Below, piece after piece: positions 3,047 to 29,632 of a DNA stretch of 29,632 nt. Within the stretch, counting starts at the first letter, position 1. Every line of letters begins with the position of its first letter. This DNA is from a virus. Location: IMG/VR virus record IMGVR_UViG_3300031783_000004, positions 1 through 29,632 of that record. The stretch is one strand, 5' to 3'. A program made the position numbers and the translations under genes. The notes below the pieces were generated by a model that made no database searches, had not been told where the DNA came from, and saw nothing but the letters and a program-made list of their open reading frames with translations.

Positions 3047-3119
3047 AGCACTACCCTCCGAATTGCGAAGTTAGGTACCGTTTACTGAGACTAAATGCCA
3101 AGCTAGTGGCTTCGCTTTT

Positions 3120-14925: not shown

Positions 14926-15338
14926 TACACCGAGTAAACATACTCGCAGCTTACCGTGCTCACAAAAAGCCTATGCGTGTCCAGATACTCGTGGAAGTAA
15001 AGAGGCGATGCAGCGACACTCAAGCCAAGATAACCACTGGGTAGTCCCATTTCCTCTAACTCGCTTATCAGCGCCTCGACGTAATCAATCATGATGCCAA
15101 CCTGCACGTCATCAGTCAGCTTTTTCCTGATCACGATCTCCAGCGTGATGTAGAGCGACCTACGGTCCCTCGACTCACTCTGATCTCGCACCTCACGCGG
15201 CACCACTGAAACCAGCAGTCGATTGTCCGTCACATCGATGGTCGGGTGGTAGTCCAAGCCAACTTCAGCGCTCAGCGGCAAACTGGCACCAGCCAGTTCG
15301 TTCGTTACGTGTCGAGCCAAGTCTATGATTGCGCCCAT
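14925..15338 (-). CDS. Putative tail terminator protein (137 aa)
   Basis: It lies between the head completion genes and the tail tube gene, where tail terminators (lambda gpU-like) are found. It has a helical N-terminus (IIDLARHVTNELAGASL), a strand DNRLLVSVVPREV, and a following RRSLYITLEIVIRKKLTDD strand with a helix DYVEALISELEEM. That alpha/beta arrangement fits the gpU-like fold. Assignment rests on order and predicted layout, not a signature motif. The start has only a weak Shine-Dalgarno. Confidence 0.65.
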   Translation of the reverse strand: MGAIIDLARHVTNELAGASLPLSAEVGLDYHPTIDVTDNRLLVSVVPREVRDQSESRDRRSLYITLEIVIRKKLTDDVQVGIMIDYVEALISELEEMGLPSGYLGLSVAASPLYFHEYLDTHRLFVSTVSCEYVYSV

Positions 15339-15347
15339 CGTGTCTGC

Positions 15348-15710
15348 TTAGCTTCCAATCATGCGAGTGCGGACTACCAAAAATTTGTGCTCGTAATCTG
15401 CCCACGACCAGTCCGGCTCACCGTCACCCGAGAGCACCTCGTGAATGACATTGACGCCGCGCACATTTTCAATAATGCGATCACCTCGCTGCGGCACTAC
15501 CGGCAAGTCTTCCGACCACACCAGCCACTGGCGATTGGTCGATTGCGCATAAAGCACAACACCAGTCGCGTAGGAATTGCGCCAATTCCCATCGACTGGC
15601 ACCGCCCTGACTTCCCAGGCGTTGCCATTGCGTACCCACACAACCCTGCGCGTAACTTTATCGCGCAGGGTTGTGTGGAACCATGCGATCGCTTCATGAT
15701 ACGATGGCAT
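15348..15710 (-). CDS. Putative head-tail joining protein (120 aa)
   Basis: This 120-aa, strand-rich protein (RRVVWVRNGNAWEVRAVPVD, QWLVWSEDLPVVPQRGDRIIE) sits between the DUF2190 and tail terminator genes, the usual place for head-tail stoppers. RGDRI followed by a short strand is typical of small beta-barrel joining proteins. The first 30 codons contain a 17-bp perfect inverted repeat (15636-15678) that would make a stable mRNA hairpin. The start lies one base after the stop of the 15712-16041 gene, so it probably relies on coupled translation. Confidence 0.65.
   Translation of the reverse strand: MPSYHEAIAWFHTTLRDKVTRRVVWVRNGNAWEVRAVPVDGNWRNSYATGVVLYAQSTNRQWLVWSEDLPVVPQRGDRIIENVRGVNVIHEVLSGDGEPDWSWADYEHKFLVVRTRMIGS
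15636..15678 (-). other. 17-bp perfect inverted repeat inside a coding region
   Basis: Arms 15636-15652 and 15662-15678 (CCACACAACCCTGCGCG and its complement) pair perfectly around a 9-base loop, within codons 11-25 of the 15348-15710 gene. It is as strong as the intergenic hairpins of this genome but lies in a coding sequence. It could throttle expression of downstream genes, be an RNA processing site, or be a protein-binding site. Confidence 0.7.
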
Positions 15711-15711
15711 G

Positions 15712-16041
15712 TCAACCGATCTTCACTCGAACCCGTGCATCCGTTGCAGCCGCATCACGGTAACACAGGCCAATGCGAAAACGATTGGCTCCATCAGTCT
15801 TGACTGCGACTTTGTTAGTCTTGTCCCAATAAACTTCATCACCGACTACGAAGCTATCACTTCCTTTGGCCAGGTCGAAAACGCCTACTGTTGCCAGCGA
15901 TCCCAACTCGCCAGCCAGGATAGGACTGCGTGTAACTCCGTACACACGATCACCAGCAAACGAGACAACCTCACCAGCCGGTACATCGCTGCTGGGAATG
16001 TAAGGAATCGAGTCGCCAACACCAACGTAAACTGCCCTCAT
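15712..16041 (-). CDS. DUF2190-family capsid-associated protein
   Basis: This 109-aa protein shows the DUF2190 pattern: IPSSDVPAGEVVSFAGDRVYGVTRSPILAGELGSLATVGVFDL, then a GDEVYWDKTNKVAVKT segment and a closing I-G-L-C block with A...VRVKI. Members lie next to capsid genes and are thought to be decoration or fibre proteins on the head. ATG 16041 is preceded by GGGAGGTGAT, a near-perfect match to the 16S rRNA tail, consistent with high expression. It follows the capsid gene directly. Confidence 0.87.
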   Translation of the reverse strand: MRAVYVGVGDSIPYIPSSDVPAGEVVSFAGDRVYGVTRSPILAGELGSLATVGVFDLAKGSDSFVVGDEVYWDKTNKVAVKTDGANRFRIGLCYRDAAATDARVRVKIG

Positions 16042-16059
16042 GTTATCACCTCCCTAGCA

Positions 16060-18138: not shown

Positions 18139-19582
18139 CTTCTACGCCCTCCCTTTCGTCTTCAGGAATGGAAGTCTGTTTCGATGGATTCTCCGTTGTC
18201 AGCGGCAGGCCCAACTCGCGCATCAACTCGACCTCACGTGCACGCTGACGCAAAACTTCTTCCCAGTCCAGGCCCTGCGTCGCACACTCATGCGCCAGCG
18301 TAGTTACTCCCGTGCGCAGCCGAGTATCAACTGCATTGGCTTCTTTGAGCGGGTCGATCGCTGGCATGCCGTCCCAAAACCACGCCGTCTCGATCTCGTT
18401 TTCCAGTGTCAGCGGTAAGGAATTGGCCAGCAGATACTCGCGCAGCCACATGTAGAAGATGCGGTCCAGAACATTGCGACGCAGATTCGCCTGCTCGATA
18501 GCGATGGAGCGGAAGTAACTGGTCATGTCCAGCCGGCCCGATGAAAAGTTGTGGCTGCTGCTGTCACAGGCTGCAACGTTATAAGGCATGTGGAGACAGC
18601 GCGCAATCTCGGAAAGTAATTGCCTCTTGAAGTCGCCATACGTTGTCGATGGCTGCTCGACACGCAGTTGTTCCATTTTCCAGCCAGCTGGCATGGTGAC
18701 GAGCATGCGCCGTTCCAGCTCGACTGGCACCCATTCCTCAGCCTCAATGGCCTCGCCACCAGGTGGGGCATCTGTGTAGAGGATGCCAGCGAAGTCTGCC
18801 GCCGTCTCAGCAGCCGAGAGCACAGCCAATGTGTAGCGACGTAACTGAGCGAATAACGGCAACGCCGGTGTAATCTCAGGAATGCCACGGGCCTGGCCAG
18901 GGCGATACTTCGTGTAGATGTGAATCACTTGCTCCGCTGGTACCGTGTCATATTCAAAGCGGCTGGACACCAGCGTGGCATCACCAGGATGCTCTTTGAG
19001 CACGTGATAAGCCTGCACGTTGCCATAGGCATCAAAGACGATGCCATCGACAGGCTGCTCTGGTGTGGGCGACCAAAACGGCGTGGTCACCTGATCACAT
19101 TCGACCAGGCGGTAGTCTAACTGCACCCCATCAGTTGCGATGAAGGGATTGGTGACCGCAATCAGGAACGACTCGCCATCTTGAATTTTGGCAACCGTGG
19201 CCGTCCAAATTTTCTCAGCCAGGCCTACGCGATCATACCAGCGGCGAAACGATGCCTCGATCTGATCGGAAAGTAATTTCGACTCGAATCTCACTTGCAG
19301 TCGCGGTCCTGTGCCAACGATATGGTTGGCTTTCGTCATCACGATGCCAAAGGCATAGCAGTTATTCGCCACTTCGTAGCGAGAGCGTGCGCGCAGGGTA
19401 CTACGAACATCAGGGGAATTGAGGGCGTTGGCCGACAGGTAATCGACATTGGCCCAATGACGACGGTTTTCCTCCGTCGTCATGGCAGCGTCATACTTGG
19501 CGCGCACATTGAGCGGCACGCGCACAAATCGGGCTGACGTGCGCCTCTTCGTTCCCAGTAGTTTCCTGATCCAGCCGATCAT
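18113..19582 (-). CDS. Portal protein (lambda-type)
   Basis: This 489-aa protein has the lambda-type portal layout: basic N-terminus, RRHWANVDYLSANALNSPDVRSTLRARSRYEVANNCYA (about 40-77), a central core with GQARGIPEITPALPLFAQLRRYTLAVLSAAETAADFA (about 231-268), and GDFKRQLLSEIARCLHMPYNVAACDSSSHNFSSGRLDM (about 316-353). Twelve copies form the ring through which DNA is packaged and where the tail attaches. The C-terminus is acidic. Its start overlaps the stop of the gpW-like gene by 4 bases, as in the lambda A-W-B order. Confidence 0.92.
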   Translation of the reverse strand: MIGWIRKLLGTKRRTSARFVRVPLNVRAKYDAAMTTEENRRHWANVDYLSANALNSPDVRSTLRARSRYEVANNCYAFGIVMTKANHIVGTGPRLQVRFESKLLSDQIEASFRRWYDRVGLAEKIWTATVAKIQDGESFLIAVTNPFIATDGVQLDYRLVECDQVTTPFWSPTPEQPVDGIVFDAYGNVQAYHVLKEHPGDATLVSSRFEYDTVPAEQVIHIYTKYRPGQARGIPEITPALPLFAQLRRYTLAVLSAAETAADFAGILYTDAPPGGEAIEAEEWVPVELERRMLVTMPAGWKMEQLRVEQPSTTYGDFKRQLLSEIARCLHMPYNVAACDSSSHNFSSGRLDMTSYFRSIAIEQANLRRNVLDRIFYMWLREYLLANSLPLTLENEIETAWFWDGMPAIDPLKEANAVDTRLRTGVTTLAHECATQGLDWEEVLRQRAREVELMRELGLPLTTENPSKQTSIPEDEREGVEDEKMPADI

Positions 19583-19785
19583 ACTGTACCATTCGGGATC
19601 AAGCGAATAAATCTCAGCGCCCTGGCAGGCTTCTGGACTGCCTCCAGCGAGCGCAAGTAACGGTCCGCCTCAATCAACTCTTGAAGCGTGCGTTGTTTCA
19701 CTGTGCCAATCGAAGTCGAAACTTCGCTGGCTTCAGCGGCAGCTTGACGAATCGTCTGCTCCAGGCTATTGTTGTCGTCAGACAT
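19579..19785 (-). CDS. gpW-like head-tail connector
   Basis: The 68-aa length equals lambda gpW, and the gene lies between terminase and portal as W does. The sequence has a helical N-terminus, a short strand region (TSIGTVKQRTLQELIEADRYLRS), and a C-terminal ALRFIRLIPNGTV tail, resembling gpW-type proteins in which this helix lines the connector. ATG 19785 has GAGGAG upstream. A -10-like TACAAT lies at about 19813-19818, after the hairpin at 19847-19888, so the gene may be partly re-initiated there. Confidence 0.75.
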   Translation of the reverse strand: MSDDNNSLEQTIRQAAAEASEVSTSIGTVKQRTLQELIEADRYLRSLEAVQKPARALRFIRLIPNGTV

Positions 19786-19846
19786 AGTCGTGTCTCCTCA
19801 CCACTAAGACGCATTGTAACGCATGGCGTTTTGGCTTTGAGTATCA

Positions 19847-19888
19847 CAGGGTCAAAGTGATTCCACCAATGGAATCACTTTGACCCTG
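19847..19888 (-). terminator. Long perfect hairpin after the zinc-ribbon gene
   Basis: Arms 19847-19865 and 19870-19888 pair over 19 bases with a 4-base loop. The TGA stop of the 19875-20057 gene is within the arm. There is no T-run. In the middle of the late operon it may be a partial terminator, RNase protection element, or processing site that separates terminase from the head genes. Confidence 0.65.
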
Positions 19889-20057
19889 ACAGCCTTTCAA
19901 CAGTGACCCAGCGCCTTGAGCAGGCACGGCAGATGCGCACACGAATAATGCAACGCCAGCGCCGGCGAACATAGTACACTCGGCTATCGACACAACCGCA
20001 CTTCGGGCACTCGATGCCATATTGCCGGCGCGCTTTGCGTGCATCATCACTGCGCAT
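19875..20057 (-). CDS. Small NrdR-like zinc-ribbon protein (60 aa)
   Basis: C17-x-x-C20 and C43-x-x-C46 with an Arg-rich middle (VRRRWRCIIRVRIC) make a zinc ribbon closely resembling the N-terminal DNA-binding ribbon of NrdR (CPxC...DSR...R-x-C-x-x-C-x-R-x-x-T-x-E), but without the ATP-cone domain. It might bind DNA or act as a terminase or late-gene accessory. ATG 20057 overlaps the terminase 3' end by 11 bases. The stop codon falls inside the hairpin at 19847-19888. Confidence 0.75.
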   Translation of the reverse strand: MRSDDARKARRQYGIECPKCGCVDSRVYYVRRRWRCIIRVRICRACSRRWVTVERLSGSK

Positions 20058-22359
20058 ACACCCTCAAATACTTGGCCCTGGCTTCACGTTGCCACTGGGC
20101 AAAGTTCACTTTCTCACGCTTTCTCTTCTCAGCATGTTCGGGCAGCGAGACGCCTTGAATCGATGCGGCCACTGCAGCGCCCACCAGGCAGTCCCACCAG
20201 TGATTGTCATCATTACTGGCGCGCAGCTTCCACTCGTTGACGATTCTGCCTCGAGACTCGACCGGGACAAAATACTCAGAAAGCAGGTGATCGAAAAACA
20301 GCCGATGTGCTGCAGCATTAGTACCGAATACGAAGAGCGTACCAGACTGGCCACGTTCTGTCACTAGGCGCGAGTACACGAATGACTTCCAAAAGTTCGT
20401 GTCAAAGACGACATGCCGGATGCCCCGCTCGCGAAGATGGATTCGCCAATGCAATCCCACACGCACAGCACCACCTTTCGACCATTCGTTCATAGGCCTA
20501 GACGATGCCCCGACATACTTGCCATGCGACGGAAAAACTGACACAGCATAGACGCTATCTTTGCAAGTCTTGTACACGACATCCGTCATAGCGCCCCAGC
20601 TTGCGTCCACAAGGCAACGCTCGATCTTGAGTGTGGCATTGCTGTCGGCCACAGGATATGATCTCGACATCAGCTTCTCGATTGTCTCAGCGATGCCACG
20701 TGATACCATCGTCTCAACGGAATTCGTGTTGTAGTACGACTGCAGTGTGACCGGAATCTCACGAAGTGAGAAGTAACTGACCGACTGCTCTGGCGTCGTT
20801 CCGTAGTCAATCACATAGCCGTCGAAAGTCTCAGTCCAGGCGCAGACTAGGTAATAGATTGCGTTCTGATGCGAGTCGATGAACGCGGTCAGTGTAGTGC
20901 AGCCAGGCGGTACTACACCGCGCGGCTGCATACTCAGACGTTTCGACAACAGCGACGCGTTCAGGTGATACTCCTCTACGCCAGCGTTATCGAGTATCGG
21001 TGTGTTCTGATACTCAGCTTGAAACGATCGGTCATCACGGAGCCACAGATTCATGGCATGCTGGATCGCTGACAACTCGTCATGATTGAATCGCTCGGGC
21101 CAGGCAACGACTGCGCCGCGGTCCATCTCTTCACGATGGGCCTGGTAAAATTCGTTTGCCTTTTCGATGCCACTACCACTGGCCAGACACTCATCGAGGA
21201 TGCGCTTGTACTCGTACCAAAGATTCAAGTTTTCCGGCATGGCGTAGAGCATCTTCATGCGTTCACCCGACCATTCCGGATGCAGGTCGCGATTGAGAAT
21301 GCGGTCGGCCAAGTCGTTAGGGTAGATAACCGTGCAGGGCATAATCGCGCTGATCTTTTTGCCCGGGCCAGCCAGGCCCAGGATAGCACCATTCAAGATG
21401 TTTTCACGCATGGCGCATTGTGTGGGTGAGCGTGCCGACTCGTCTGTTTGCGGATCATCGATCACGACCAATGACGGTCTGACTGTCCGACCATCAGGCC
21501 GATGGAATGTCATGCCACGAATGCGGCCAGTAATTCCTGACACACGAATGGCAGCGCCCGAGCAGAGCGCACCAGGAATCGTGGCCAGTGTCAGCGAGTT
21601 AGCAGTACACTCGATATGCGTGCGTTCACCACGAAACAACTGTCCATGCGAGCGCTTCGTAATTCCCGACAAGCACCGAATCGGATGCGTGGCTTCAGGG
21701 AATGCCGCATGCAGTTTGTCATTTGTCTCCAGCTCTGTCTTGATTGTGTCCAGCATTGAGATGGCGTGCTCTTCATCGGCTCCGATGAGCACCACGAATT
21801 CATGGTGACCGTAAAGGATCGCCCACAGGCACGCAGCGATGCTCAGCACAGTTTTGCCACTACCACGCGGCATTGCGAATGCGAATTGACCGCCTGACAG
21901 GACAGCACGCTCGATCTTTTCGATGGCGCGAAGGTGATCACGAGACCACTTTAGGTAGAAGACTGACGAGAGAAAATGCTCACAGAAAAAACGGAAGTCT
22001 TGGCGTGCGCGGACATAGCCTTCGACATCTGTGCGCTCAGGCATAGTCGATGCGATGTCTCGAGATATTTGCGACATCGACTTGATCCTAAGCGCCATGC
22101 TATCGCGGTGTCGTTCATAGCGTTTGGCTTGTATTTCGGCATCAATGGCTGACAAGTTTCTGCCACGTGCAACTTCGGCCAACACCCAGAGGATGAAGCG
22201 ATACAGGTGGACATACTTCCCGTCGGCTGTAGCTAGAAACGACATGCCTGATATGTCGCGCATGAGGCGAAACAGTCGCCGGTCAATAACATGCCCAAAT
22301 TCAGTCGAATTGACTAGGCGAAAAAGTGTATCGAATGGAAAGCGTGTCGCATCAGCCAT
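20047..22359 (-). CDS. Terminase large subunit (gpA-like)
   Basis: This 770-aa protein is the packaging motor. The ATPase part has Walker A PRGSGKT at 164-170 and Walker B LVVIDDP at 297-303 followed by Q-T-D-E. The C-terminal half carries the nuclease region, with TTLTAFIDSHQNAIYY (about 490-505) and the late NDDNHWWDCLVGAA segment (about 728-741) that supplies conserved acidic residues, as in lambda gpA-type large terminases. About 120 residues precede the ATPase core, longer than in many relatives, possibly carrying a small-subunit or DNA-binding role since no separate small terminase is obvious. ATG 22359 has no strong Shine-Dalgarno and follows the 72-aa gene by 12 bases. Confidence 0.92.
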   Translation of the reverse strand: MADATRFPFDTLFRLVNSTEFGHVIDRRLFRLMRDISGMSFLATADGKYVHLYRFILWVLAEVARGRNLSAIDAEIQAKRYERHRDSMALRIKSMSQISRDIASTMPERTDVEGYVRARQDFRFFCEHFLSSVFYLKWSRDHLRAIEKIERAVLSGGQFAFAMPRGSGKTVLSIAACLWAILYGHHEFVVLIGADEEHAISMLDTIKTELETNDKLHAAFPEATHPIRCLSGITKRSHGQLFRGERTHIECTANSLTLATIPGALCSGAAIRVSGITGRIRGMTFHRPDGRTVRPSLVVIDDPQTDESARSPTQCAMRENILNGAILGLAGPGKKISAIMPCTVIYPNDLADRILNRDLHPEWSGERMKMLYAMPENLNLWYEYKRILDECLASGSGIEKANEFYQAHREEMDRGAVVAWPERFNHDELSAIQHAMNLWLRDDRSFQAEYQNTPILDNAGVEEYHLNASLLSKRLSMQPRGVVPPGCTTLTAFIDSHQNAIYYLVCAWTETFDGYVIDYGTTPEQSVSYFSLREIPVTLQSYYNTNSVETMVSRGIAETIEKLMSRSYPVADSNATLKIERCLVDASWGAMTDVVYKTCKDSVYAVSVFPSHGKYVGASSRPMNEWSKGGAVRVGLHWRIHLRERGIRHVVFDTNFWKSFVYSRLVTERGQSGTLFVFGTNAAAHRLFFDHLLSEYFVPVESRGRIVNEWKLRASNDDNHWWDCLVGAAVAASIQGVSLPEHAEKRKREKVNFAQWQREARAKYLRVYAQ

Positions 22360-22371
22360 AACAGCACGCGA

Positions 22372-22590
22372 TCATGTTTTCTCCTGATAAAGCCGTATCA
22401 GGCCAGCAAGTAAGAGCATCGCTGGCACCGAATCATCATCTTCATAATGCTCAGCCAGCGCTCGCTTTACCAAGTCGCGAAAGTCCCCTTCACCAATCTG
22501 AACATCTGGATAATTGCCCAGCATGTCATCATATAATTCTCGCACATTGAGACTCCAGTCGAATATACCAACAGTTCCATCTTCATGCAT
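22372..22590 (-). CDS. Small acidic protein (72 aa), unknown
   Basis: This protein is acidic and helical (VRELYDDMLGNYPDVQIGEGDFRDLVKRALAEHYEDDDSVPAMLLLAGLIRLY). It overlaps the glycosyltransferase-like gene by 8 bases and precedes the large terminase by 12 bases. ATG 22590 has TGAGGT upstream. A small terminase-like accessory is possible by location, but its length and sequence do not show a DNA-binding motif. Confidence 0.6.
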   Translation of the reverse strand: MHEDGTVGIFDWSLNVRELYDDMLGNYPDVQIGEGDFRDLVKRALAEHYEDDDSVPAMLLLAGLIRLYQEKT

Positions 22591-23452
22591 ACACTGACCT
22601 CAATATCTCAGGATAGCTGTATTTGAATATCAGATGATGTAACCTACCGACCAGGGTAACAAATGACACGCGACAATTACCTGGCCACTGCATGAACGTG
22701 TAAAACGACTTTGCATAGGTCCCAAATATCTTGTAATAGTCTGTCAGGCCACCGGGATTGCGCTGTGTTTTCATCTGCTTGACGACACAGGTGTAGTTCT
22801 GCAGGAATAACTTTCCCCTCAACCCGTGCACATAGTAGGTTGTGACATCATCGTTGCCACGGCCCACAAAGTCAAAGCGCCGGTCTGTCCTCAGAAAAAA
22901 TGTCTGCATGACTTTGCGAAACTCGTTGTTCGCAAACTCGCCCGTTTGCGCCATGCCGACACACATGACATTCGGGCAGTCATCCAGAAAGTCCCAGAAT
23001 ATAGCGAACAGACGATCTAAGTAGTTTGGGAATTTTTCCAAGTCATCGACAAGCGACCTCTCGTGTGAGACAAGACGCCACGGCAGTGAGCCAGATATAC
23101 TGCTGTAGTCGTCATCGAGAACAAGAAAATGTGTCCAACCTAGCTCAGCTGCCACGTCCCACAAAACGTTGCGTACAGCAAGGGGAGACGGATAGGTGTT
23201 GTCGCGCGGCAGGTTGTCACAGTAGTCGCAATCGACCAACTCGCGGTTGTACTCGATCAGGTCATCTCGAAAACGCTGACGATACTCCTCTAACTCTGGG
23301 TCGTCTGTGGCCACAACCACAAACTTGTCACCGGTGTAGTGGAAACGCTTCAGCGTCGTCCAAGTCATCACCCTGTCAGCGCGTCGATACGAAATGACAA
23401 ACACGCCACGTTTATCATGGCTTGCCCTCGGTACCCTGAACAGACTTGACAC
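22583..23452 (-). CDS. Putative glycosyltransferase (TET-associated-type, GT-A fold)
   Basis: The protein starts with a Rossmann-like GVFVISYRRADRV, followed by the KFVVVATDDPELEEYRQRF strand-helix, an NTYPSPLAVRNVLWDVAAELGWTHFLVLDDDYSSISG segment with the D-D-D metal-binding motif, and a C-terminal FVGRGNDDVTTYYVHGLRG segment. The layout resembles the TET-associated glycosyltransferases of phages, which are linked to modified DNA bases; the assignment is from memory. GTG 23452 is chosen over GTG 23482 because GGGAGG lies 6 bases upstream. It overlaps the ParB-like gene by 38 bases. The neighbours (ParB-like protein, terminase) would fit DNA modification, but no TET or base-hydroxylating enzyme is seen. 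Confidence 0.7.
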   Translation of the reverse strand: MSSLFRVPRASHDKRGVFVISYRRADRVMTWTTLKRFHYTGDKFVVVATDDPELEEYRQRFRDDLIEYNRELVDCDYCDNLPRDNTYPSPLAVRNVLWDVAAELGWTHFLVLDDDYSSISGSLPWRLVSHERSLVDDLEKFPNYLDRLFAIFWDFLDDCPNVMCVGMAQTGEFANNEFRKVMQTFFLRTDRRFDFVGRGNDDVTTYYVHGLRGKLFLQNYTCVVKQMKTQRNPGGLTDYYKIFGTYAKSFYTFMQWPGNCRVSFVTLVGRLHHLIFKYSYPEILRSVYA

Positions 23453-24209
23453 GGTTAGCCTCCCGTAGCAACTCGAAAACACGATTGGTCAACTTCACCC
23501 AACCACGTTCCAACGCCTCGTCAAAGTCCACGATCACCAGAGCCAAACGGCGAAAAATTGCCTTCACATTGTCATCGCTATGCGCATAATACTCAGCAAT
23601 CTTGTCAAAGCGCCAGCGCACAAACCGAATCGCCGAGTACTCGAGAAAGCGCCTCAACTCTGCGTCTTCAACTTTCCTGACTTCCTCGAGCAACTTCTCC
23701 GCCTCTGTCGCATCATACAACTCACTAACTTCAGGCTTAGGTCCTCGCGGCTCATAAAAAATTTTCGTCGTGTCCAGTGAGTAGTTTTTTAGCTGCCTTA
23801 TCTCCTTATTGAACCCGAACAAGTCTAAGTCGATGGTCAGCCCACACTTGATCGACTCCTGTACATTTTTCAACTCAATGTCCAATTTCATCATATTCCA
23901 CGACGACAAGTTTGCTGTACGATTGTCGATCAAGCGATATAGCTTGGCTTCCTCCGGCGTAAAGTCTGCAACATGCACAGGAACACTGGCCAGGCCCAGG
24001 TGTTTAGCCGCCTCGTAGCGAACATGCCCGACCACAATGACACCTTCACGATCCACAACAATCGGCTGGCGCCAGCCGAAACGCTGGATCGAATCCGCCA
24101 CTGCTCGAATCGCACGCCTTGGGATATTGCGTGGGTTGTTCTCGTAAGGTCGAATCTCGTCCAGACTTTTCCACTCGATCTCCAGGTCGCAATTTTCCAG
24201 ATGCCCCAT
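23415..24209 (-). CDS. ParB-like N-terminal domain protein
   Basis: With ATG 24209 (GAGGG 8 bases upstream) the protein is 264 aa. Residues about 12-105 are a ParB/Srx-like domain: SLDEIRPYENNPRN, AVADSIQRFGWRQPIVVDREGVIVVGHVRYEAAKHLGLASVPV, then DFTPEEAKLYRLIDNRTANLSSWN. Phage proteins of this type often sit beside terminases or DNA-modifying genes; some are nucleases or NTP-binding switches. The C-terminal ~150 residues are charged and helical and unassigned. It is the first gene of the late operon. The longer open frame up to 24383 runs through the divergent promoter region and is not likely translated. Confidence 0.87.
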   Translation of the reverse strand: MGHLENCDLEIEWKSLDEIRPYENNPRNIPRRAIRAVADSIQRFGWRQPIVVDREGVIVVGHVRYEAAKHLGLASVPVHVADFTPEEAKLYRLIDNRTANLSSWNMMKLDIELKNVQESIKCGLTIDLDLFGFNKEIRQLKNYSLDTTKIFYEPRGPKPEVSELYDATEAEKLLEEVRKVEDAELRRFLEYSAIRFVRWRFDKIAEYYAHSDDNVKAIFRRLALVIVDFDEALERGWVKLTNRVFELLREANRVKSVQGTEGKP

Positions 24210-24377
24210 CGCACACACCCTCGAAAATAAAATAAACTTTTGACTATCGTGTGACTGTTCCCGCCGGCCTGCGCCGCGTTGCGATCGCAGGAAGGACCCA
24301 GGGGTATTGCGTGCTTGTTTTGGCTCTGCTATAACGTAATCGTAGCGCAATAACTTTTTACCGGAAGGGGGGTTGTG
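24210..24377. other. Divergent intergenic region, ParB-like / protease
   Basis: This 168-base stretch holds the plus-strand promoter of the protease gene and must also carry the leftward promoter of the late operon, if the operon is not read through from upstream. On the minus strand an AT-rich block before ATG 24209 (TTTATTTTATTTT) could be a -10 for a non-standard or sigma-dependent late promoter; I see no good -35. No gene is present. Confidence 0.5.
24307..24335 (+). promoter_or_regulatory. Promoter of the protease gene
   Basis: TTGCGT (24307-24312), 17 bases, then TATAAC (24330-24335) preceded by TGC, an extended -10. It is the only gene-directed rightward promoter I see and matches the idea of an independently expressed moron. 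Confidence 0.7.
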
Positions 24378-25163
24378 ATGCAACGTGATTGGCGTCAGAT
24401 CGTGGTGACGATCCTATCAACAGCAGCGGCGATTTTGGCTTCAATCTGGGGCGTGCAGGTGATGGGTGTGCGTTTTGGGTGCGCACCGCCGCCACCAGCA
24501 GTACCACAGCCTGATTGTGACAAGGGCAAGCCAGCGCCAGAGGAACCGAAGCCAGAGCAGAACGCTTGCGAAGCGATTGTGAAGGTAGTGATGGCGGGCG
24601 GGTATTGCAGTGGTACGATCATTGGTCCTCCACCAGCGGATGGCAGGTGGACGATTGTTTCGGCAGCGCATTGTTTTCGGCGCATTGGCGAGCCAGTGGA
24701 ATTTATCACGCGCCGTGGTATCGCAGGTCGGGCGATTGTGATTGCGATCAATCGCAAGTCTGATTGTGCGATTTTGAAGACTGAGGAATTTCAGCGACTG
24801 CCGTTCATCTTGTTGGCCGGTGATATTCCGGCGGTAGGGGAAAAGGTGTTTCATTGCGGTTATGGGACGCATTTGCCGGGCAATCGTGAGGATGGTGTCG
24901 TGTTGTCGGGTGAGGATTCGAATGGTCAGGTGCGTTATCGCATTTCGGTTTCGCATGGTGACAGTGGTGGCGGGATTGTTTCGACTGTCAGTGGCAGGTT
25001 ACTGTCACCAGTTTGCTGTACGACTAGGATAGCGGGTGTAGGTGATGTTTGGGGCGCCTCGCCTCGGGTGATTCGCGACATGGTGGCGAAGCCAGCGACA
25101 TTCGCTTCCGATCTTGAGCCGATCAAGATGCCGATTCGTGAGGAAAAGGATTCGGGTAATTGA
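24378..25163 (+). CDS. Membrane-anchored trypsin-like serine protease (moron)
   Basis: This is the only plus-strand gene. Residues about 8-27 (IVVTILSTAAAILASIWGVQ) form a signal anchor, followed by a Pro/Lys/Glu-rich linker (about 34-62). The trypsin fold has H98 in SAAHC, D129 in KSDCAIL and S196 in GDSGGG, so the triad is complete. Several cysteines (e.g. C78, C99, C130, C160) suggest disulfides and an extracytoplasmic site. ATG 24378 follows GGAAGGGGGG; GTG 24375 is also in frame. It has its own promoter (24307-24335) and is followed by a terminator (25227-25267), opposite to all other genes. It may cut host surface or competing-phage proteins, or process a virion protein; substrate unknown. 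Confidence 0.92.
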   Translation: MQRDWRQIVVTILSTAAAILASIWGVQVMGVRFGCAPPPPAVPQPDCDKGKPAPEEPKPEQNACEAIVKVVMAGGYCSGTIIGPPPADGRWTIVSAAHCFRRIGEPVEFITRRGIAGRAIVIAINRKSDCAILKTEEFQRLPFILLAGDIPAVGEKVFHCGYGTHLPGNREDGVVLSGEDSNGQVRYRISVSHGDSGGGIVSTVSGRLLSPVCCTTRIAGVGDVWGASPRVIRDMVAKPATFASDLEPIKMPIREEKDSGN

Positions 25164-25188
25164 CAGCGTTTGGTGCTTAGGCTATAAT
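25160..25188 (+). promoter_or_regulatory. Perfect-consensus sigma70 promoter for a small RNA
   Basis: TTGACA (25160-25165), exactly 17 bases, then TATAAT (25183-25188). Every hexamer base matches consensus, better than any other promoter here. The TGA stop of the protease is within the -35. It points rightward at the terminator only 40 bases on, so no protein gene is served. Confidence 0.85.
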
Positions 25189-25194
25189 AGCGTT

Positions 25195-25267
25195 GACACT
25201 TACCCTCCTTTGGGGTTGTGGTACCGACAGCTTAGCAGGTTGATGACTTGCTAAGCTGTGTCTTTTT
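25195..25267 (+). ncRNA. Candidate ~70-nt antisense small RNA
   Basis: A transcript from the promoter at 25160-25188 would start near 25195 and end at the terminator at 25227-25267. Its first 30 bases (TTACCCTCCTTTGGGG, then TTGTGGTACC) are the reverse complement of the leader/Shine-Dalgarno type used by many of the phage's small genes (GGTACCACAACCC...AAAGGAGGG). The 5' part would be single-stranded and free to pair with those leaders, and the 3' part is the terminator hairpin, a typical trans-acting small RNA layout. It is also antisense to the last ~12 codons and the 3' end of the sigma factor gene. Expression is not demonstrated. Confidence 0.6.
25227..25267 (+). terminator. Rho-independent terminator after the protease / small RNA
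   Basis: ACAGCTTAGCA (25227-25237) pairs perfectly with TGCTAAGCTGT (25249-25259) around an 11-base loop, followed by GTC and five T's. It is oriented for rightward transcription only. The sigma factor gene, coming the other way, has its last codons and stop (25232) inside it. Confidence 0.85.
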
Positions 25268-25843
25268 GAGCGTGGTGTAAGTTGTTTTCCTTTTGGTAGT
25301 CACATCAAATGCGACTTTCAGTTTGAAGAGAGCTTCGTTGTGGAGCGACTTGGCTGCTCCTTTAGGGCAACGAAGGCGATTTGCAACTTCTGCGAAACTT
25401 GCCAGTTCGTTTGGCTTACTGAAGTAGCGATACTCTAGGTATTGATACTGTCGTTTTGTGAGTATCCTTTTTGCGACTTTGAGGACGTACTCAGCCAGGT
25501 CTCTTACTGTGATGGAGTAGGCAGGATCGTCATTACGAACAATCTTATCTATGGGGAATTCTGTGACCGTTTCCTCGCGTTGCAAGTAATGACGAAAGCG
25601 AATGCATCGAAAAAGCTCGCGTTGGATGAGGACAGCTGCGTAAGCGTGGAAGGGCAGGCGACCGTTGTATGTTTTTGTGGCTTTCCAGAGCGCGATGAGC
25701 GCCTCTTGGAGTAAGTCTTGCTCGCCCAATCGGTGGACATACGGTTTATTGACGATAGCGAATTGATGCAGTTTCAAGTACACTAGTGCACGGTATTGTT
25801 TGAACACTGCGCTAAAGTCGTTGAGGTCGATGTGAATATTCAT
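25232..25843 (-). CDS. Phage-encoded sigma-70-family RNA polymerase sigma factor
   Basis: This 203-aa protein has sigma region 2 at about residues 15-90 (HRLGEQDLLQEALIALWKATKTYNGRLPFHAYAAVLIQRELFRCIRFRH), with the typical D-L-x-Q-E-x-x-x-A-L-W and F-x-x-Y-A motifs. Region 4 at about 115-178 has a helix-turn-helix (ASFAEVANRLRCPKGAAKSLHNEALFKLK). The size fits small sigma-H/ECF-like factors. It would redirect host RNA polymerase, perhaps to late promoters whose sequence is not sigma70-like. It starts at ATG 25843 with GAGGA and follows the hairpin at 25863-25906. Its last ~12 codons are encoded inside the opposite-strand terminator, so its C-terminus has probably been reshaped by the moron insertion. 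Confidence 0.88.
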   Translation of the reverse strand: MNIHIDLNDFSAVFKQYRALVYLKLHQFAIVNKPYVHRLGEQDLLQEALIALWKATKTYNGRLPFHAYAAVLIQRELFRCIRFRHYLQREETVTEFPIDKIVRNDDPAYSITVRDLAEYVLKVAKRILTKRQYQYLEYRYFSKPNELASFAEVANRLRCPKGAAKSLHNEALFKLKVAFDVTTKRKTTYTTLKKTQLSKSSTC

Positions 25844-25862
25844 GGCGTATCCTCGGCATAGA

Positions 25863-25906
25863 TGATGCAGTCCAGGGCTGTTTTGAGACAGCCCTGGACT
25901 GCATCA
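25863..25906 (-). terminator. Long perfect hairpin before the sigma factor gene
   Basis: Arms 25863-25881 and 25888-25906 pair over 19 bases with loop TTTGAG. It lies between the stop at 25928 and the sigma factor start at 25843, so it could act as an attenuator for sigma expression. No T-run follows on the minus strand. Confidence 0.65.
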
Positions 25907-25927
25907 GGTAGTTTAGGCGTTGCGGGT

Positions 25928-26257
25928 TTACTCGTCTTGCGATTGCTCGTTGGTCAGTGCGAAGCCACTGCAGGGCAATGGCAAGTCAGAATAGACTTGC
26001 AGCAAGTATCTGCTATCGTCTGTGCTGACGTAGCAAGTCTTCACGGTGCCATTGTCTCGGAATTTCGGCTGCTGCGTTTCGTCTTTTTCGATGACAAAGA
26101 AGTTTTTGAGCACGCAGAGCACTTGGCTTTCGGTGAGCGTCTGTTTTTTCGTTCTGCGCCTATGTGGTGTCCAGCCATTTTTGGCGAGGATATGGGTGAC
26201 CGTTGATGGTGTAACATTGAGCAGTTGCGCCAGTGCGACGCGTGTGAGCGGTTTCAT
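25928..26257 (-). CDS. Small helix-turn-helix DNA-binding protein (109 aa)
   Basis: The N-terminus is a helix-turn-helix: LTRVALAQLLNVTPSTVTHILAKNGWTPHRRRT (about 4-36), with the turn at NVTPS and basic residues after the recognition helix. The remainder (CYVSTDDSRYLLQVY) is a short strand domain of unknown use. It may repress or activate the nearby promoters. ATG 26257 has GGAGGG upstream. The gene lies immediately upstream of the sigma factor gene, so the two probably form a regulatory pair. Confidence 0.75.
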   Translation of the reverse strand: MKPLTRVALAQLLNVTPSTVTHILAKNGWTPHRRRTKKQTLTESQVLCVLKNFFVIEKDETQQPKFRDNGTVKTCYVSTDDSRYLLQVYSDLPLPCSGFALTNEQSQDE

Positions 26258-26356
26258 GGTTTTGCCCTCCGTTATATAGCAGGTTGTTGGGGAAGCGAGT
26301 GAACAAACGACAGTAGGCGTTGGACAGTTTTCCTGATTGCGTCAGCGTGGTAATAG

Positions 26357-26608
26357 TCAGTCTTCGCATTCAGCCATGCGTTCAGCCTCAAGTTTTTCCA
26401 GGCGTTCACGTACACGTTCCAGTCTGCGCAGGGTACCGTATGGGATTCTCTCTTCTGAGACTTTCGCCCAGTTTCCAACGCCGAATCCACCTTCGTAAGT
26501 GAAGGTGTCGTCATAGACGATGGCGAATCCCCAATTTGGGAAAAGGATTTCGGAGCGAACGAGCAGAAGATACTCCCCGTATTCGTTGCGGACGTATTCA
26601 GCTTCCAT
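26357..26608 (-). CDS. Small protein, paralog of the 28721-28954 product (83 aa)
   Basis: The product begins MEAEYVRNEYGEYLLLVRSE and continues with ILFPNWGFAIVYDD and GGFGVGNWAKVSEERIP, closely matching FVRSKEGLYLLEIESEILFP-WKFAL and RGFGVASVWTKVAEGEVPE of the gene at 28721-28954. The C-terminal ~25 residues are a charged helix. The two are paralogs that arose by duplication within this phage or by exchange. The family function is unknown. The leader ACCACAACCC...ACGGAGGA belongs to the shared leader type. ATG 26608. Confidence 0.8.
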   Translation of the reverse strand: MEAEYVRNEYGEYLLLVRSEILFPNWGFAIVYDDTFTYEGGFGVGNWAKVSEERIPYGTLRRLERVRERLEKLEAERMAECED

Positions 26609-26651
26609 TTTCAGTCCTCCGTGTCAGGGTTGTGGTTTCGAGGCAATCGTG

Positions 26652-26969
26652 TTAGCAGTCTTCCGACTTGCAGAGGCGCTCATGCAGTGTCAGCAGTATG
26701 GCAGTCGGCGAGTCTGCTAAGTCTTGGGCAGACTGGACCGAGTGTTCAGGTCGGCACACACGCCAAGCGATATAGGGCAGGTGTTGGCGTGTGTGGCCAG
26801 TGGGTGTTACTTCATAGATGTGCCAGCCGTCGCTGGTGTAGTACCAGCGGTCGGCGACATGAAAGACTCCAACGTGGAGTACTCGGTGGAGTCTTTTTTC
26901 GACCAGTCGCCTGCGCAGGCGAAAGACTTGGTCGAGGATGTCTCGGATTAGTGGTCCGGCATCAGGCAT
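26652..26969 (-). CDS. Small basic protein, unknown (start uncertain)
   Basis: The core (RRRLVEKRLHRVLHVGVFHVADRWYYTSDGWHIYEVTPTGHTRQHLPYIAWRVC) looks like a real beta-rich domain with many aromatic residues. No family recognised. ATG 26969 is the first in-frame ATG but lacks a Shine-Dalgarno; TTG 27017 upstream also lacks one. Just above, in another frame, an ATG near 27058 with AAGAGG upstream opens a 23-codon frame, which hints that the true N-terminus was separated by a frameshift or that a short upstream ORF is present. A plus-strand frame across the same bases is less protein-like. Confidence 0.55.
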   Translation of the reverse strand: MPDAGPLIRDILDQVFRLRRRLVEKRLHRVLHVGVFHVADRWYYTSDGWHIYEVTPTGHTRQHLPYIAWRVCRPEHSVQSAQDLADSPTAILLTLHERLCKSEDC

Positions 26970-27081
26970 TGGACTAATTTGCCTTTTTAGGCGTGTGAAG
27001 TCGCTGCCCGTCCGCAACGAAACTGGTCACGATCGGTTGGATGGGATACCTTATCCATAGATGTAGCCTCTTTTGTAGTCC

Positions 27082-27108
27082 CACGCCGGTTCCTCCCGAG
27101 CCGGCGTG
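27082..27108. terminator. Small GC-rich hairpin
   Basis: CACGCCGG (27082-27089) pairs with CCGGCGTG (27101-27108) around an 11-base loop. It is in the intergenic region between the excisionase-like gene and the 26652 gene. Probably a terminator or operator; no T-run. Confidence 0.4.
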
Positions 27109-27153
27109 TGGTCTTTCCGGGGTGTCTTTGTCCGTCCCTGGACAAAGGAGCCG

Positions 27154-27240
27154 CTTTCCCTGGGCCTGGGCGGATTAGCTGACACCGCGTTGTCACTACT
27201 TTCCCTGGGCCCAGGGAATCCGATGACACCTCGCTGCCAC
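27154..27240. repeat. Tandem palindromic repeats (operator-like)
   Basis: Two units about 45 bases apart share CTTTCCCTGGGCC and a following GATnnnTGACACC-type block. 27201-27218 is a perfect palindrome, the left unit (27155-27172) a degenerate one. 27224-27240 (TGACACCTCGCTGCCAC) recurs inverted at 2094-2112 next to a third palindrome copy. Confidence 0.6.
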
Positions 27241-27266
27241 GTGCGTGTGTCGCATTCGCTCCCACT

Positions 27267-27497
27267 TCATGCGTCGCATTCGATCTCCGAAGTCGGACCC
27301 GGAGGAATTCCGTTGGCGGAATGAGAGAGAACACGGCGACTGCGGAGCCATTCCCGCAAGTCTTCCACGACGTAGAGCGTCGCCCGCCCCAGCTTGATAT
27401 GAGGAATTTCCCCGTTGTGAGTCAGCTCCTGCAGATACCGCAGGGAAATACCGAGCATCCTGGCCGCCTCACGCGGTCGTACAGCTAAAGCGTTCAT
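27267..27497 (-). CDS. Excisionase-like helix-turn-helix protein (76 aa)
   Basis: RPREAARMLGISLRYLQELTHNGEIPHIKLGRATLYVVEDLREWL (about 7-51) is a MerR/excisionase-type (HTH_17) winged helix: REAARMLGIS helix-turn, YLQELTHNGEIPHIKLG recognition and wing, and a final E-D-L-x-x-W-L helix. In phages this domain occurs in Xis proteins, Cro-like regulators and DNA-bending factors. No integrase is found in the genome, so a regulatory role is more likely than excision. The Shine-Dalgarno GGGAGGTGAT is the best in the accessory region, implying strong translation. It may bind the palindromes directly downstream. Confidence 0.85.
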   Translation of the reverse strand: MNALAVRPREAARMLGISLRYLQELTHNGEIPHIKLGRATLYVVEDLREWLRSRRVLSHSANGIPPGPTSEIECDA

Positions 27498-27500
27498 GAA

Positions 27501-27764
27501 TCACCTCCCACTACACAGAAAAGACAACTTTTGCGGACCACAATTGGGGCAGTAGTAATCGCCCCAAAGAGCGTTCCAGTAGTATCCGTTGCCCACTTCG
27601 CAGTGGGGTGGAACAGCGTCCCAAACACCCGTAATTGGGTCCTTCATCATTCGCCCCAAGCAATGCCCACAAACTGGGCAGTAACCGAAGTGAACATTTT
27701 CCCAGTCAGATACTTGATTGGCTGGCCGCCGGTCACCACAAACATCACATCGTTCCCAACGCAT
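27501..27764 (-). CDS. Small zinc-binding protein (87 aa)
   Basis: The protein carries cysteine pairs C6-x-x-C9, C29-x-x-C32-x-x-C35 and C72-x-x-C75 plus H34 and C55, enough for two zinc sites (ribbon type), and many aromatic residues (NGYYWNALWGDYYCPNC). It could bind nucleic acid or a host protein. ATG 27764 is preceded by CGGAGGG and leader element copy C. The downstream helix-turn-helix gene follows 4 bases after the stop, so the two are cotranscribed. Confidence 0.78.
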   Translation of the reverse strand: MRWERCDVCGDRRPANQVSDWENVHFGYCPVCGHCLGRMMKDPITGVWDAVPPHCEVGNGYYWNALWGDYYCPNCGPQKLSFLCSGR

Positions 27765-27823
27765 AGCATGTCCCTCCGTTTGTTAGGTCGTGGATACCAA
27801 TCACCCTTGGGCATCACTGCATT
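27765..27823 (-). promoter_or_regulatory. Repeated 5' leader element, copy C
   Basis: On the minus strand TGCAGTGATGCC, loop CAAG closed by CC/GG, GATTGGTATCCACGACCTAA, then CGGAGGG. The mini-ORF reading gives M-P-K-G-D-W-Y-P-R-P, but this frame is not that of the downstream gene. Confidence 0.65.
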
Positions 27824-27838
27824 AGGTGTGGGTTGGCA

Positions 27839-27871
27839 GGACTGATGCCTGTGTCTGCCAGGCATCAGTCC
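27839..27871 (-). terminator. Hairpin after the 27887-28528 gene
   Basis: GGACTGATGCCTG (27839-27851) and CAGGCATCAGTCC (27859-27871) pair over 13 bases with a 7-base loop. It lies between two genes transcribed leftward, so it probably attenuates read-through into the zinc protein gene. Confidence 0.6.
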
Positions 27872-27886
27872 ATCATCAGTCCATTG

Positions 27887-28528
27887 TCAATCATCATTTT
27901 CATCTGCCAGAGGAGCGACCACCTCGAGCAACCGATTAGCTGCCGCTCGAATGGCCAGGTCATTGACATCATCGACTGTGGCGTCATCCTTGACAGTGCA
28001 GGCAGCTCGAAACATATACTCTGCGATCCGCCGCGCAGCCATTTTTTGGCTGAATGGAACGCGCGCACTATGGCTGAAGTTTGGGGCAATCATTTGAAGC
28101 GGGTCAAAGTAGTAAGTGAGTGTATCATCCCGCCCTACAAGTACAACGCCATTGTCAGCGTCAGGCATCAAATCGAATTGGACAGCGTCAACTACCCAGC
28201 CAAGGCCGTCATAAATTTGCTCTCGGCTGAGTCGGTGAGTCTCCAATTCATCGAACACGGGGTGACAGGGGCACACAAACCGCAGTAGCCAAGCCACTGC
28301 CCTAATGTCGATCTCACTGACTGGTCGCTGACGGGCATGGTTTCGCACGACCCATCGGAAGATAGCGTCCAGGACACGACGCCGGTTTTCCTCACTAACT
28401 TGCTCTGGCGGCAGCGGACCAGGCAGGGCAAAACGTGTCGAAAGCACACTTTTCAAGTATCTGCTGTAGCGCTTTGCCTTGCTGCTGAGAAACTGAGACA
28501 CTTCACGCCAGGTCAGGATGCGGTTCAT
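27887..28528 (-). CDS. Unknown protein (213 aa), first gene of an accessory operon
   Basis: I do not recognise this protein. The N-terminus (RILTWREVSQFLSSKAKRYSRYLKSVLS) is helical and basic, the middle has QFDLMPDADNGVVLVGRDDTLTYYF, and the C-terminal third is helical and acidic at the end (LADENDD). With its strong promoter (28626-28654) and Shine-Dalgarno ACGGAGGGTAA it is likely expressed early and strongly. The leader is element copy D. The gene is followed by the hairpin at 27839-27871. Confidence 0.72.
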   Translation of the reverse strand: MNRILTWREVSQFLSSKAKRYSRYLKSVLSTRFALPGPLPPEQVSEENRRRVLDAIFRWVVRNHARQRPVSEIDIRAVAWLLRFVCPCHPVFDELETHRLSREQIYDGLGWVVDAVQFDLMPDADNGVVLVGRDDTLTYYFDPLQMIAPNFSHSARVPFSQKMAARRIAEYMFRAACTVKDDATVDDVNDLAIRAAANRLLEVVAPLADENDD

Positions 28529-28590
28529 AACTTTACCCTCCGTTTGTTAGGTGTGTATGTGGTACCGAACGCCTTGCGGCATCACTGCAG
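28529..28590 (-). promoter_or_regulatory. Repeated 5' leader element, copy D
   Basis: On the minus strand CTGCAGTGATGCC, loop GCAA between GCC and GGC, then CGGTACCACA and finally CGGAGGGTAA before ATG 28528. Both GGTACCACA and GGAGGGTAA are complementary to the candidate small RNA (25195-25267). The mini-ORF reading gives an 11-codon peptide M-P-Q-G-V-R-Y-H-I-H-T. Confidence 0.65.
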
Positions 28591-28625
28591 TCTTTTTTTT
28601 GCTCTTTTTCACTGTCCTCACCACT

Positions 28626-28654
28626 ATCTTAGCACTAGGCCAGCCAGGCGTCAA
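28626..28654 (-). promoter_or_regulatory. Extended -10 promoter with UP-like A-tracts (unit D)
   Basis: On the minus strand there is TTGACG (28654-28649), a 17-base spacer ending TGC, and TAAGAT (28631-28626). Three A-tracts spaced about 11 bases apart (opposite T-runs at 28659-28685) sit upstream. It drives the 27887-28528 gene and those beyond. Confidence 0.8.
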
Positions 28655-28700
28655 GCGAATTTTCCGATTTTTTTTCGATTTTTTTCTGACTGGCCTAGTG
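28633..28700. promoter_or_regulatory. Operator-like inverted repeat flanking promoter D
   Basis: CACTAGGCCAGCCAG (28633-28647, in the -35/-10 spacer) is repeated inverted, with one mismatch, as CTGACTGGCCTAGTG (28686-28700, just upstream of the A-tracts). Centres are 53 bases apart, about five helical turns. The same layout, with its own sequence variant, exists at promoter F. Confidence 0.65.
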
Positions 28701-28720
28701 TGCACTATCTCACTGCCAGT

Positions 28721-28954
28721 TTACTTGCCCTCAATTTTTTGGCGGAGTGTACGTGCGGCTTGATCCAGTTTGCGCCGTATATCCTCTGGCACTTCGCCTT
28801 CAGCCACTTTGGTCCAGACACTGGCCACGCCAAAGCCGCGCGGCCACAATTTCTCACCATCATGAAGAGCAAACTTCCAAGTCGGGAAGAGGATTTCGGA
28901 CTCGATTTCCAGCAAATACAGTCCCTCTTTGGATCGCACAAACTTCGTCTTCAT
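28721..28954 (-). CDS. Small protein, paralog of the 26357-26608 product (77 aa)
   Basis: MKTKFVRSKEGLYLLEIESE, ILFPTWKFALHDG and RGFGVASVWTKVAEGEVPEDI match the 26357-26608 product along its length; the C-terminus is a basic helix (RRKLDQAARTLRQKIEGK). Function unknown. ATG 28954 is chosen: GGAGGG lies upstream and the paralog aligns from this start. The open frame continues in phase upstream through the leader (giving M-P-S-G-D-W-Y-P-Q-P), but that extension is shared with leaders of unrelated genes, so it is not part of this protein. Second gene after promoter F. Confidence 0.8.
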   Translation of the reverse strand: MKTKFVRSKEGLYLLEIESEILFPTWKFALHDGEKLWPRGFGVASVWTKVAEGEVPEDIRRKLDQAARTLRQKIEGK

Positions 28955-29010
28955 CGCCTGTCCCTCCAGTTTAGGTTGTGGATACCAATCGCCCGAAGGC
29001 ATCACTGCAT
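28955..29010 (-). promoter_or_regulatory. Repeated 5' leader element, copy E
   Basis: On the minus strand ATGCAGTGATGCC, loop TTCG between GCC and GGC (a UUCG-type tetraloop), then GATTGGTATCCACAACC and CTGGAGGG. A small hairpin (GGCCATCCCTGGCC, about 29022-29035) precedes it. Confidence 0.65.
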
Positions 29011-29055
29011 GGGGGTGGAAAAGGCCATCCCTGGCCAGCTATTCCATCCTGATCA

Positions 29056-29373
29056 TTACTCCTCTTCAACTGCGATTTCCTTACCGTCCTCAATCTCCTT
29101 TAGGGCATCCAGCACATAGTAGGCCAGCCATTCGTCCTGAATCGCCATGATGTCGCAGCGGTACGGCTTCAGGGCATCGATGTCCCATTCCTTTGGGGCA
29201 ACTTTCCAGCGCCGCTCATCCAACATGTACAGCTTTTCACCAGAGAACAGGAAGTATTGCCCCGCGTAGCAGTACAGGCCAACCTTGGCCGCCACCTTTT
29301 GCCCGTGCTTCAGGGCAACCTTGCCCTGAATCTTGACCAGCCGTTCCAGCGCTCGCTCGTTGGTCCGTTTCAT
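29056..29373 (-). CDS. Small protein of unknown function (105 aa)
   Basis: The N-terminus is basic and helical (MKRTNERALERLVKIQGKVALKHGQKVAAK), followed by a strand region VGLYCYAGQYFLFSGEKLYML, and an acidic C-terminus (EIEDGKEIAVEEE). No family recognised; weak resemblance to the 52-393 product (K...G...VGL...GYFYL). ATG 29373 has AAAGGAG upstream. The mini-ORF of leader copy F ends with a TGA that overlaps this ATG (ATGA). First gene after promoter F, the strongest-looking of the three related promoters. Confidence 0.72.
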   Translation of the reverse strand: MKRTNERALERLVKIQGKVALKHGQKVAAKVGLYCYAGQYFLFSGEKLYMLDERRWKVAPKEWDIDALKPYRCDIMAIQDEWLAYYVLDALKEIEDGKEIAVEEE

Positions 29374-29431
29374 CGTTCATTCTCCTTTGTTAGGGTTACT
29401 TGGTACCGATCGCCCTCAGGCATCACTGCAT
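29374..29431 (-). promoter_or_regulatory. Repeated 5' leader element, copy F
   Basis: On the minus strand TGCAGTGATGCC, loop TGAG between GCC and GGC, GATCGGTACCAAGTAACCC, then AAAGGAG. Read as a mini-ORF it encodes 17 codons (M-P-E-G-D-R-Y-Q-...) whose stop overlaps the gene's ATG, allowing coupled translation. Confidence 0.65.
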
Positions 29432-29462
29432 TTTTTAGTCTTTTTCCTTTGTCTCTGCCCTT

Positions 29463-29491
29463 ATTCTAGCACTAGGCCGGCCAGGCGTCAA
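29463..29491 (-). promoter_or_regulatory. Extended -10 promoter with UP-like A-tracts (unit F)
   Basis: On the minus strand there is TTGACG (29491-29486), a 17-base spacer ending TGC, and TAGAAT (29468-29463). Upstream A-tracts lie opposite T-runs at 29497-29524. It drives the 29056-29373 and 28721-28954 genes. Confidence 0.82.
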
Positions 29492-29536
29492 GCGAATTTT
29501 TCGGTTTTTTTTTTCGATTTTTTTCTGGCCGGCCTA
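29473..29536. promoter_or_regulatory. Operator-like inverted repeat flanking promoter F
   Basis: TAGGCCGGCCAG (29473-29484) in the -35/-10 spacer is repeated perfectly inverted as CTGGCCGGCCTA (29525-29536; also bases 20-31). Centres are 52 bases apart, with the A-tracts between them. Confidence 0.65.
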
Positions 29537-29632
29537 TCCTCTAACCCTGCTTAGGCTTACGCCGGCAGGGTGATTTCGCTAGCCGCAAACATGTGCCGCA
29601 GCGACAACCGATTTGCCCACATTAGGACATCC
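29506..29632. repeat. Second copy of the 127-base terminal repeat
   Basis: This is an exact copy of bases 1-127. It contains the upstream arm of the operator-like inverted repeat of the promoter at 29463-29491 and the 3' end of the gene annotated at 52-393. Confidence 0.95.

Follow-up and report, generated by a model that had tools for sequence, protein, structure and literature searches.

A putative phage small RNA with antisense complementarity to a leader shared by at least eight early genes of the same phage

Positions 25160-25267 of the analysed phage DNA probably constitute a stand-alone small RNA (sRNA) gene, the product of which would block ribosome binding to early mRNAs in trans. 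The sequence comparisons described here, conservation in two other phages among them, strongly support the presence of such a gene and its match to many early leaders; the initial observation was thus confirmed, on firmer grounds than first described.

The window, i.e., the whole stretch of DNA that was analysed, is an IMG/VR virus record of 29,632 bp and is almost complete. In the related phage G001 (IMGVR_UViG_3300031518_000053), the matches to window positions 29632 and 1 stand about 125 bp apart, which makes a circularly permuted genome of about 29.76 kb probable. Contigs of two relatives (L005 and L006) both stop exactly at the position homologous to window 24255; the genome may physically end there, or two modules may meet. 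Nearly all genes of the window are carried on the minus strand. By their gene content, on which our assignment to early and late classes rests, the early block extends on the minus strand from 3046 to 393 and then from 29373 to 25232, and the late block comprises terminase, portal, capsid, and tape measure genes. Genes for SSB, Sak4, RusA, and Prim-Pol represent replication functions, and no integrase was found among the window proteins scanned. A gene for a trypsin-like protease with a likely N-terminal membrane segment (24375-25163) lies on the strand opposite to all its neighbours. It is inverted in G001 and located at 5383-6021 in a second relative, G014 (IMGVR_UViG_3300014796_000030), where a C-terminal remnant stands beside the sRNA promoter; it appears to be a mobile, moron-like gene.

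The sRNA unit begins with a plus-strand sigma70 promoter, TTGACA-17-TATAAT (25160-25188), which agrees with the consensus at all 12 positions and is the only such match within 15000-29632 (14.6 kb). An intrinsic terminator follows on the same strand (25227-25267), with a stem-loop of 15 pairs and a loop of 3 (25227-25259) and then the U-run GTCTTTTTG. Both elements are located where the initial annotation had placed them, and the RNA of about 70 nt predicted there comes to about 73 nt (25195-25267, plus strand) with a putative start about 7 nt past the -10 box. The predicted sRNA folds far better than shuffled sequences (z -4.9). Its 5' half had been regarded as single-stranded. In the predicted fold, this applies to an open, GGUACC-ended GGGGUUGUGGUACC stretch, but not to the part before it, which forms a weak stem-loop whose loop contains or adjoins CUCCUUU; the terminator hairpin completes the predicted fold towards the 3' end. 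The anti-leader segment (25200-25225, plus strand) combines the anti-Shine-Dalgarno sequence CCCUCCUUU with GGGGUUGUGGUACC, where TTACCCTCCTTTGGGG corresponds to 25200-25215 and TTGTGGTACC to 25216-25225. It is the reverse complement of the minus-strand leader preceding early genes. Membership in a known RNA family was rejected, since no part of the window reached the gathering score of an Rfam family, and only chance miRNA matches appeared at E<=5 for 25100-25320.

The leader is present before at least eight early genes of the window (393, 812, 3046, 26608, 27764, 28528, 28954, and 29373), either in the full form or in a form with GGTACC/CCACAACCC and GGAGG. Four of these leaders (393, 26608, 28528, and 28954) had been quoted initially in essentially correct form; those of 27764, 29373, 812, and 3046 had been overlooked. 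The consensus from the window and G001 is TGATGCC-NNNN-GGCGAT-YGGTACCACAACCCTAACAAA-GGAGGG-ATG, that is, a hairpin, GGTACCACAACCC, and GGAGG. The tetraloop is variable (GCAA, TTCG, GAAA, CAAG, CCAG, or TGAG). The 4-bp stem of the 5' hairpin was paired in 98% of cells compared to 27-50% when slid, and no double (compensatory) changes were seen in it. All eight target leaders are on the minus strand. The strongest pairing with the sRNA was calculated for the leader at 28529-28591 (gene 27887-28528; -38.1 kcal/mol), followed by 813-845 with GGTACC...GGAGGG (gene 498-812; -35.4), 3047-3079 with GGTACC...GGAGGGTA (gene 2336-3046; -35.3), 27765-27823 (gene 27501-27764; -34.9), and 28955-29011 (gene 28721-28954; -34.5). 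Values for the remaining three were -31.8 at 29374-29432, which has the hairpin, GGTACCAAGTAACCC, and AAAGGAG (gene 29056-29373), -30.9 at 26609-26639, which lacks the 5' hairpin and has ACCACAACCCTGACA and GGAGG (gene 26357-26608), and -27.8 at 394-448 (gene 52-393). The early genes 1908, 25843, and 26257 have no good sRNA site. Small paralogous proteins with the pattern MxxxxVRxxxGxYLLxVxSExxFPxWxFAL (e.g., 28721-28954 and 26357-26608) travel with the leader cassette across the early block, and also in G001 and G014.

Two of the target leaders lie downstream of early minus-strand promoters, TTGACG-17-TAGAAT (29463-29491) and TTGACG-17-TAAGAT (28626-28654), and would thus be part of the transcript; elsewhere, leaders are found between cistrons. 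This arrangement indicates that the leaders act at the RNA level, and their function as a promoter or operator at the DNA level was rejected as the main reading for the same reason. The spacers of both early promoters are GC-rich and partly palindromic (CGCCTGGCCGGCC), and the spacer in G014 is the palindrome ACGCCTTGCGTAGGCGT; the spacer is a possible operator.

We infer that the sRNA is transcribed. The strong host-type sigma70 promoter would give rise to the RNA of about 73 nt, and because this host-type promoter departs least from the consensus, we expect the sRNA to be early and abundant. The RNA would base-pair in trans with the leader before at least eight early genes and cover the Shine-Dalgarno (SD) sequence together with the C/A-rich stretch upstream. 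The leaders are predicted to be weakly folded around the SD, so covering both parts should block ribosome entry and reduce translation of the early genes together.

The initial annotation had proposed that the pairing would be discredited if it were no better than that of any SD-complementary control. Pairing exceeded that of such controls. The sRNA segment paired with the eight leaders with a mean of -33.6 kcal/mol, and with -37.0 kcal/mol in the best register. In an antisense scan of 7,328 segments of 32 nt from both strands of the window, 25201-25232 ranked first against the eight leaders (-37.0), compared to a mean of -14.7 (sd 2.6) kcal/mol for all segments and -27.2 for the best non-overlapping rival. 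For 1000 controls, CCCTCCTTT was held and the remainder was shuffled, so that the anti-SD was preserved. The mean duplex energy for 12 early genes was -29.6 kcal/mol versus -22.0 +/- 1.5 for the controls, none of which was as good (0/1000), whereas 19 late genes gave -20.3 versus -19.8 +/- 1.0 kcal/mol with 323/1000 controls as good. When the whole sRNA was co-folded with mRNA stretches of 90 nt, the early genes again stood apart (-13.1 versus -6.8 +/- 1.9; 0/150 controls as good) and the late genes did not (-3.7 versus -5.1; 112/150). In each relative, too, the sRNA paired with early genes of the same phage beyond control level: 0/500 controls were as good for G001 and 4/500 for G014, where the test included five start positions, one of them offset by one base, which barely shifted the stretch. 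One seed is thus complementary, beyond chance, to the translation initiation regions of several separate phage mRNAs. The sRNA begins with 14 nt (GACACTTACCCTCC) that are also matched by the SD-to-start stretches of the replication genes 6085, 6864, and 7615 (minus strand; e.g., GGAGGGCAAGTGTC). The raw energies were -33 to -35, and 15/150 controls were as good after co-folding; pairing of the sRNA 5' end with these middle genes is suggestive, but not significant after the co-folding control.

The direction of the effect is also inferred. A leader-pairing sRNA could activate or stabilise its mRNAs, or it could mainly target host mRNAs through its anti-SD loop, as the anti-SD CCUCCUUU resembles the 3' end of 16S rRNA and could meet many host mRNAs. 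We consider both variants improbable. The leaders lack a strong predicted fold sequestering the SD, which could fit activation; however, an SD that is already open does not need to be opened, and covering it should repress. Beyond the SD, the specificity seen in this comparison among phage genes favours the phage leaders.

The terminator stem covers the last codons of a minus-strand gene for a sigma70-like factor (25232-25843; Pfam Sigma70_r2, 3e-6; phrog_351, 2.5e-12), which converges on the sRNA and overlaps its terminator. Directly upstream of the start of this gene lies a near-perfect long inverted repeat, GATGCAGTCCAGGGCTGTTTTGAGACAGCCCTGGACTGCATC (25863-25906). It is retained in G001 and also in G014 despite the truncated sigma gene there, and is a possible attenuator or RNase III site.

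The convergent arrangement and the overlap of the terminator with the 3' end of the sigma gene would also suit a unit acting in cis only. Such a unit would limit early read-through at the operon end into the late/trypsin region, or act on the 3' end of the sigma mRNA, and the leader match would be secondary. Its RNA would be perfectly complementary to any read-through transcript. A role of this kind does not need complementarity to distant leaders, yet the anti-leader is the best conserved part of the unit, and the unit persists in G014 with a truncated sigma gene. We therefore regard a purely cis-acting unit as improbable, too.

Conservation of the promoter, RNA, and terminator in related phages had been suggested as a check, and the complete unit was indeed found in G001 and G014. 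These two and the window were the only three genomes carrying it. The exact 26-mer of the anti-leader occurred in IMG/VR only in the window. With the sigma protein as bait, only G001 was recovered from IMG/VR (84% identical); there was no match in INPHARED and none in GTDB genomes, for which the N-terminal patterns were poorly chosen. A search with the leader pattern led to G014 (36,195 bp). Among its other matches, none of those inspected resembled a leader with a GGAGG-type site and a start codon behind it, and these other matches were taken as chance.

G001 contains TTGACG-17-TACAAT, CCTCCTCCTTTAGGGTTTGTGGTACC, and the same stem as the window. Next to the unit, the trypsin-like gene has the opposite orientation to that in the window, and G001 encodes a different terminase. 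The terminator is thus not simply that of the trypsin-like gene, and the unit is independent of its window neighbours on the trypsin side. In G014, the promoter at 18645-18673 is a perfect TTGACA-17-TATAAT; it is accompanied by CCTCCTTTAGGGCTGTGGTACCGAC and by a terminator whose sequence differs. Compared to the window, the terminator stem carries three compensatory pair changes (A-U to G-C, U-A to C-G, and C-G to G-C), and none of the 10 pairs in the stem core common to the three phages is broken. The sigma gene of G014 is reduced to 31 codons, its body is lost, and it ends within the stem (L039 740-830, equal to G014 18740-18830), while a second phrog_351 sigma gene is located on the other side of the sRNA (17911-18456). 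This indicates that the stem was kept without a coding role. The promoter spacer and the flanking genes have diverged among the relatives: by reading from the alignment, 4/17 spacer positions are identical in the three phages versus 24/28 in the anti-leader. This combination of a drifting spacer, fixed boxes, a compensating stem, and a fixed antisense segment is to be expected of an RNA gene.

Since the leaders are copies of one another and the sRNA unit, read on its minus strand, resembles a further copy, complementarity is expected by descent. Pairing alone is therefore no proof of selection; it is the conservation that argues for a function. According to a corresponding alternative, the minus strand at 25226-25199 is only the relic of a duplicated early leader whose gene was lost, and the plus-strand promoter transcribes across it by chance, with no function in trans. 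The early leaders are clearly duplicated cassettes, and the minus-strand order of hairpin, GGTACCACAACCC, and GGAGGG is that of the other leaders. Against this, no conserved start codon or gene follows 25226-25199 in the three phages (GTG TCA ACG CTA TTA TAG in the window, none in G001), and the plus-strand promoter and terminator were kept with compensatory changes while the spacer drifted. A relic without function is thus unlikely, if slightly less so than the other alternatives. A minus-strand peptide of 5 codons was rejected as a candidate because it is absent from G001.

Two observations in particular weaken the preferred reading, an sRNA that would repress early genes in trans. A comparison of own versus other-phage sRNA on 13 orthologous leaders of the window and G001 gave no net sign of coevolution, with D summing to about +1.4 kcal/mol. 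In G014, the sRNA has a C opposite the A of its own leaders' CCACAACCC, i.e., one mismatch.

The antisense RNA sar of phage P22 has its own promoter and terminator. Likewise, the RNA encoded by the unit described here would be short and untranslated, would have a sigma70 promoter and an intrinsic terminator of its own, and would be aimed at the translation start. Sar is a cis-encoded RNA lying opposite ant, its only target, whereas the sRNA has at least eight distant targets, about 1.4 kb or more away, that share one reiterated leader. The CI RNA of satellite phage P4 is an immunity RNA that pairs around a ribosome binding site via loop-exposed sequences, and both C4 and CI RNA are processed from the same transcript that they control. 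Our sRNA resembles them in its predicted complementarity to ribosome binding sites in phage mRNA, but has a separate promoter, the opposite strand, and many targets, and it gave no covariance model match to the C4 family. OOP of phage lambda, an RNA of about 77 nt with its own promoter and terminator, is convergent to and overlaps the 3' end of cII. The predicted sRNA is similar in length, has its own promoter and terminator, and runs convergently into the 3' end of the sigma-like gene in the window and G001. Unlike OOP, which acts on the overlapping cII mRNA, it would pair mainly with distant leaders, and in G014, where the unit persists, the truncated sigma gene appears to be dispensable. 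The phage antisense RNAs described so far are, to our knowledge, directed at one or two mRNAs each, which they silence. Repression by sar through pairing over a translation start, the pairing of the P1/P7 immunity RNA C4 around a ribosome binding site via loop-exposed sequences, and OOP as a phage antisense RNA have all been described (PMC12197685). In bacteria, GcvB silences many mRNAs via C/A-rich enhancers upstream of the SD (PMC3879156), and RsaA and RNAIII of S. aureus place C-rich loops on the SD (PMC3961350). The sRNA is predicted to share with these the action of one RNA on many mRNAs through a C/A-rich stretch or the SD. They are bacterial and act on host genes, whereas the predicted regulon of the phage-encoded RNA consists of its own early genes, which share one copied element. 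Our searches of the open-access literature yielded no description of a phage RNA that targets a leader recurring upstream of many genes of the same phage. We concluded that the sRNA would be a phage antisense RNA acting in the manner of sar or C4, without belonging to the C4 family or being cis-encoded as sar is. The initial annotation had proposed a new type of lytic-cycle switch; the principle of a phage antisense RNA acting at ribosome binding sites is already known for single targets, while a design with many targets sharing one reiterated leader and one matching RNA would set the present case apart.

The accumulating sRNA would limit early synthesis, shutting off early genes, and could in addition or instead protect against superinfecting relatives. 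Tentatively, the sRNA may be the master early repressor, with the repeated leader as an RNA "operator" that sets early-to-late timing and immunity between leader-sharing relatives. The comparison of three phages makes the pairing between sRNA and leader directly testable. Other viral genomes can be screened for the same rule, a repeated leader plus one antisense copy behind a strong promoter, with TTGAC-N17-TAtAAT and, within 60 nt, CCTCC...GGG...GTGGTACC and a stem as the pattern. If the proposed function is true, the phage would control its own regulon at the post-transcriptional level, in what would be a compact RNA version of a repressor and its operators.
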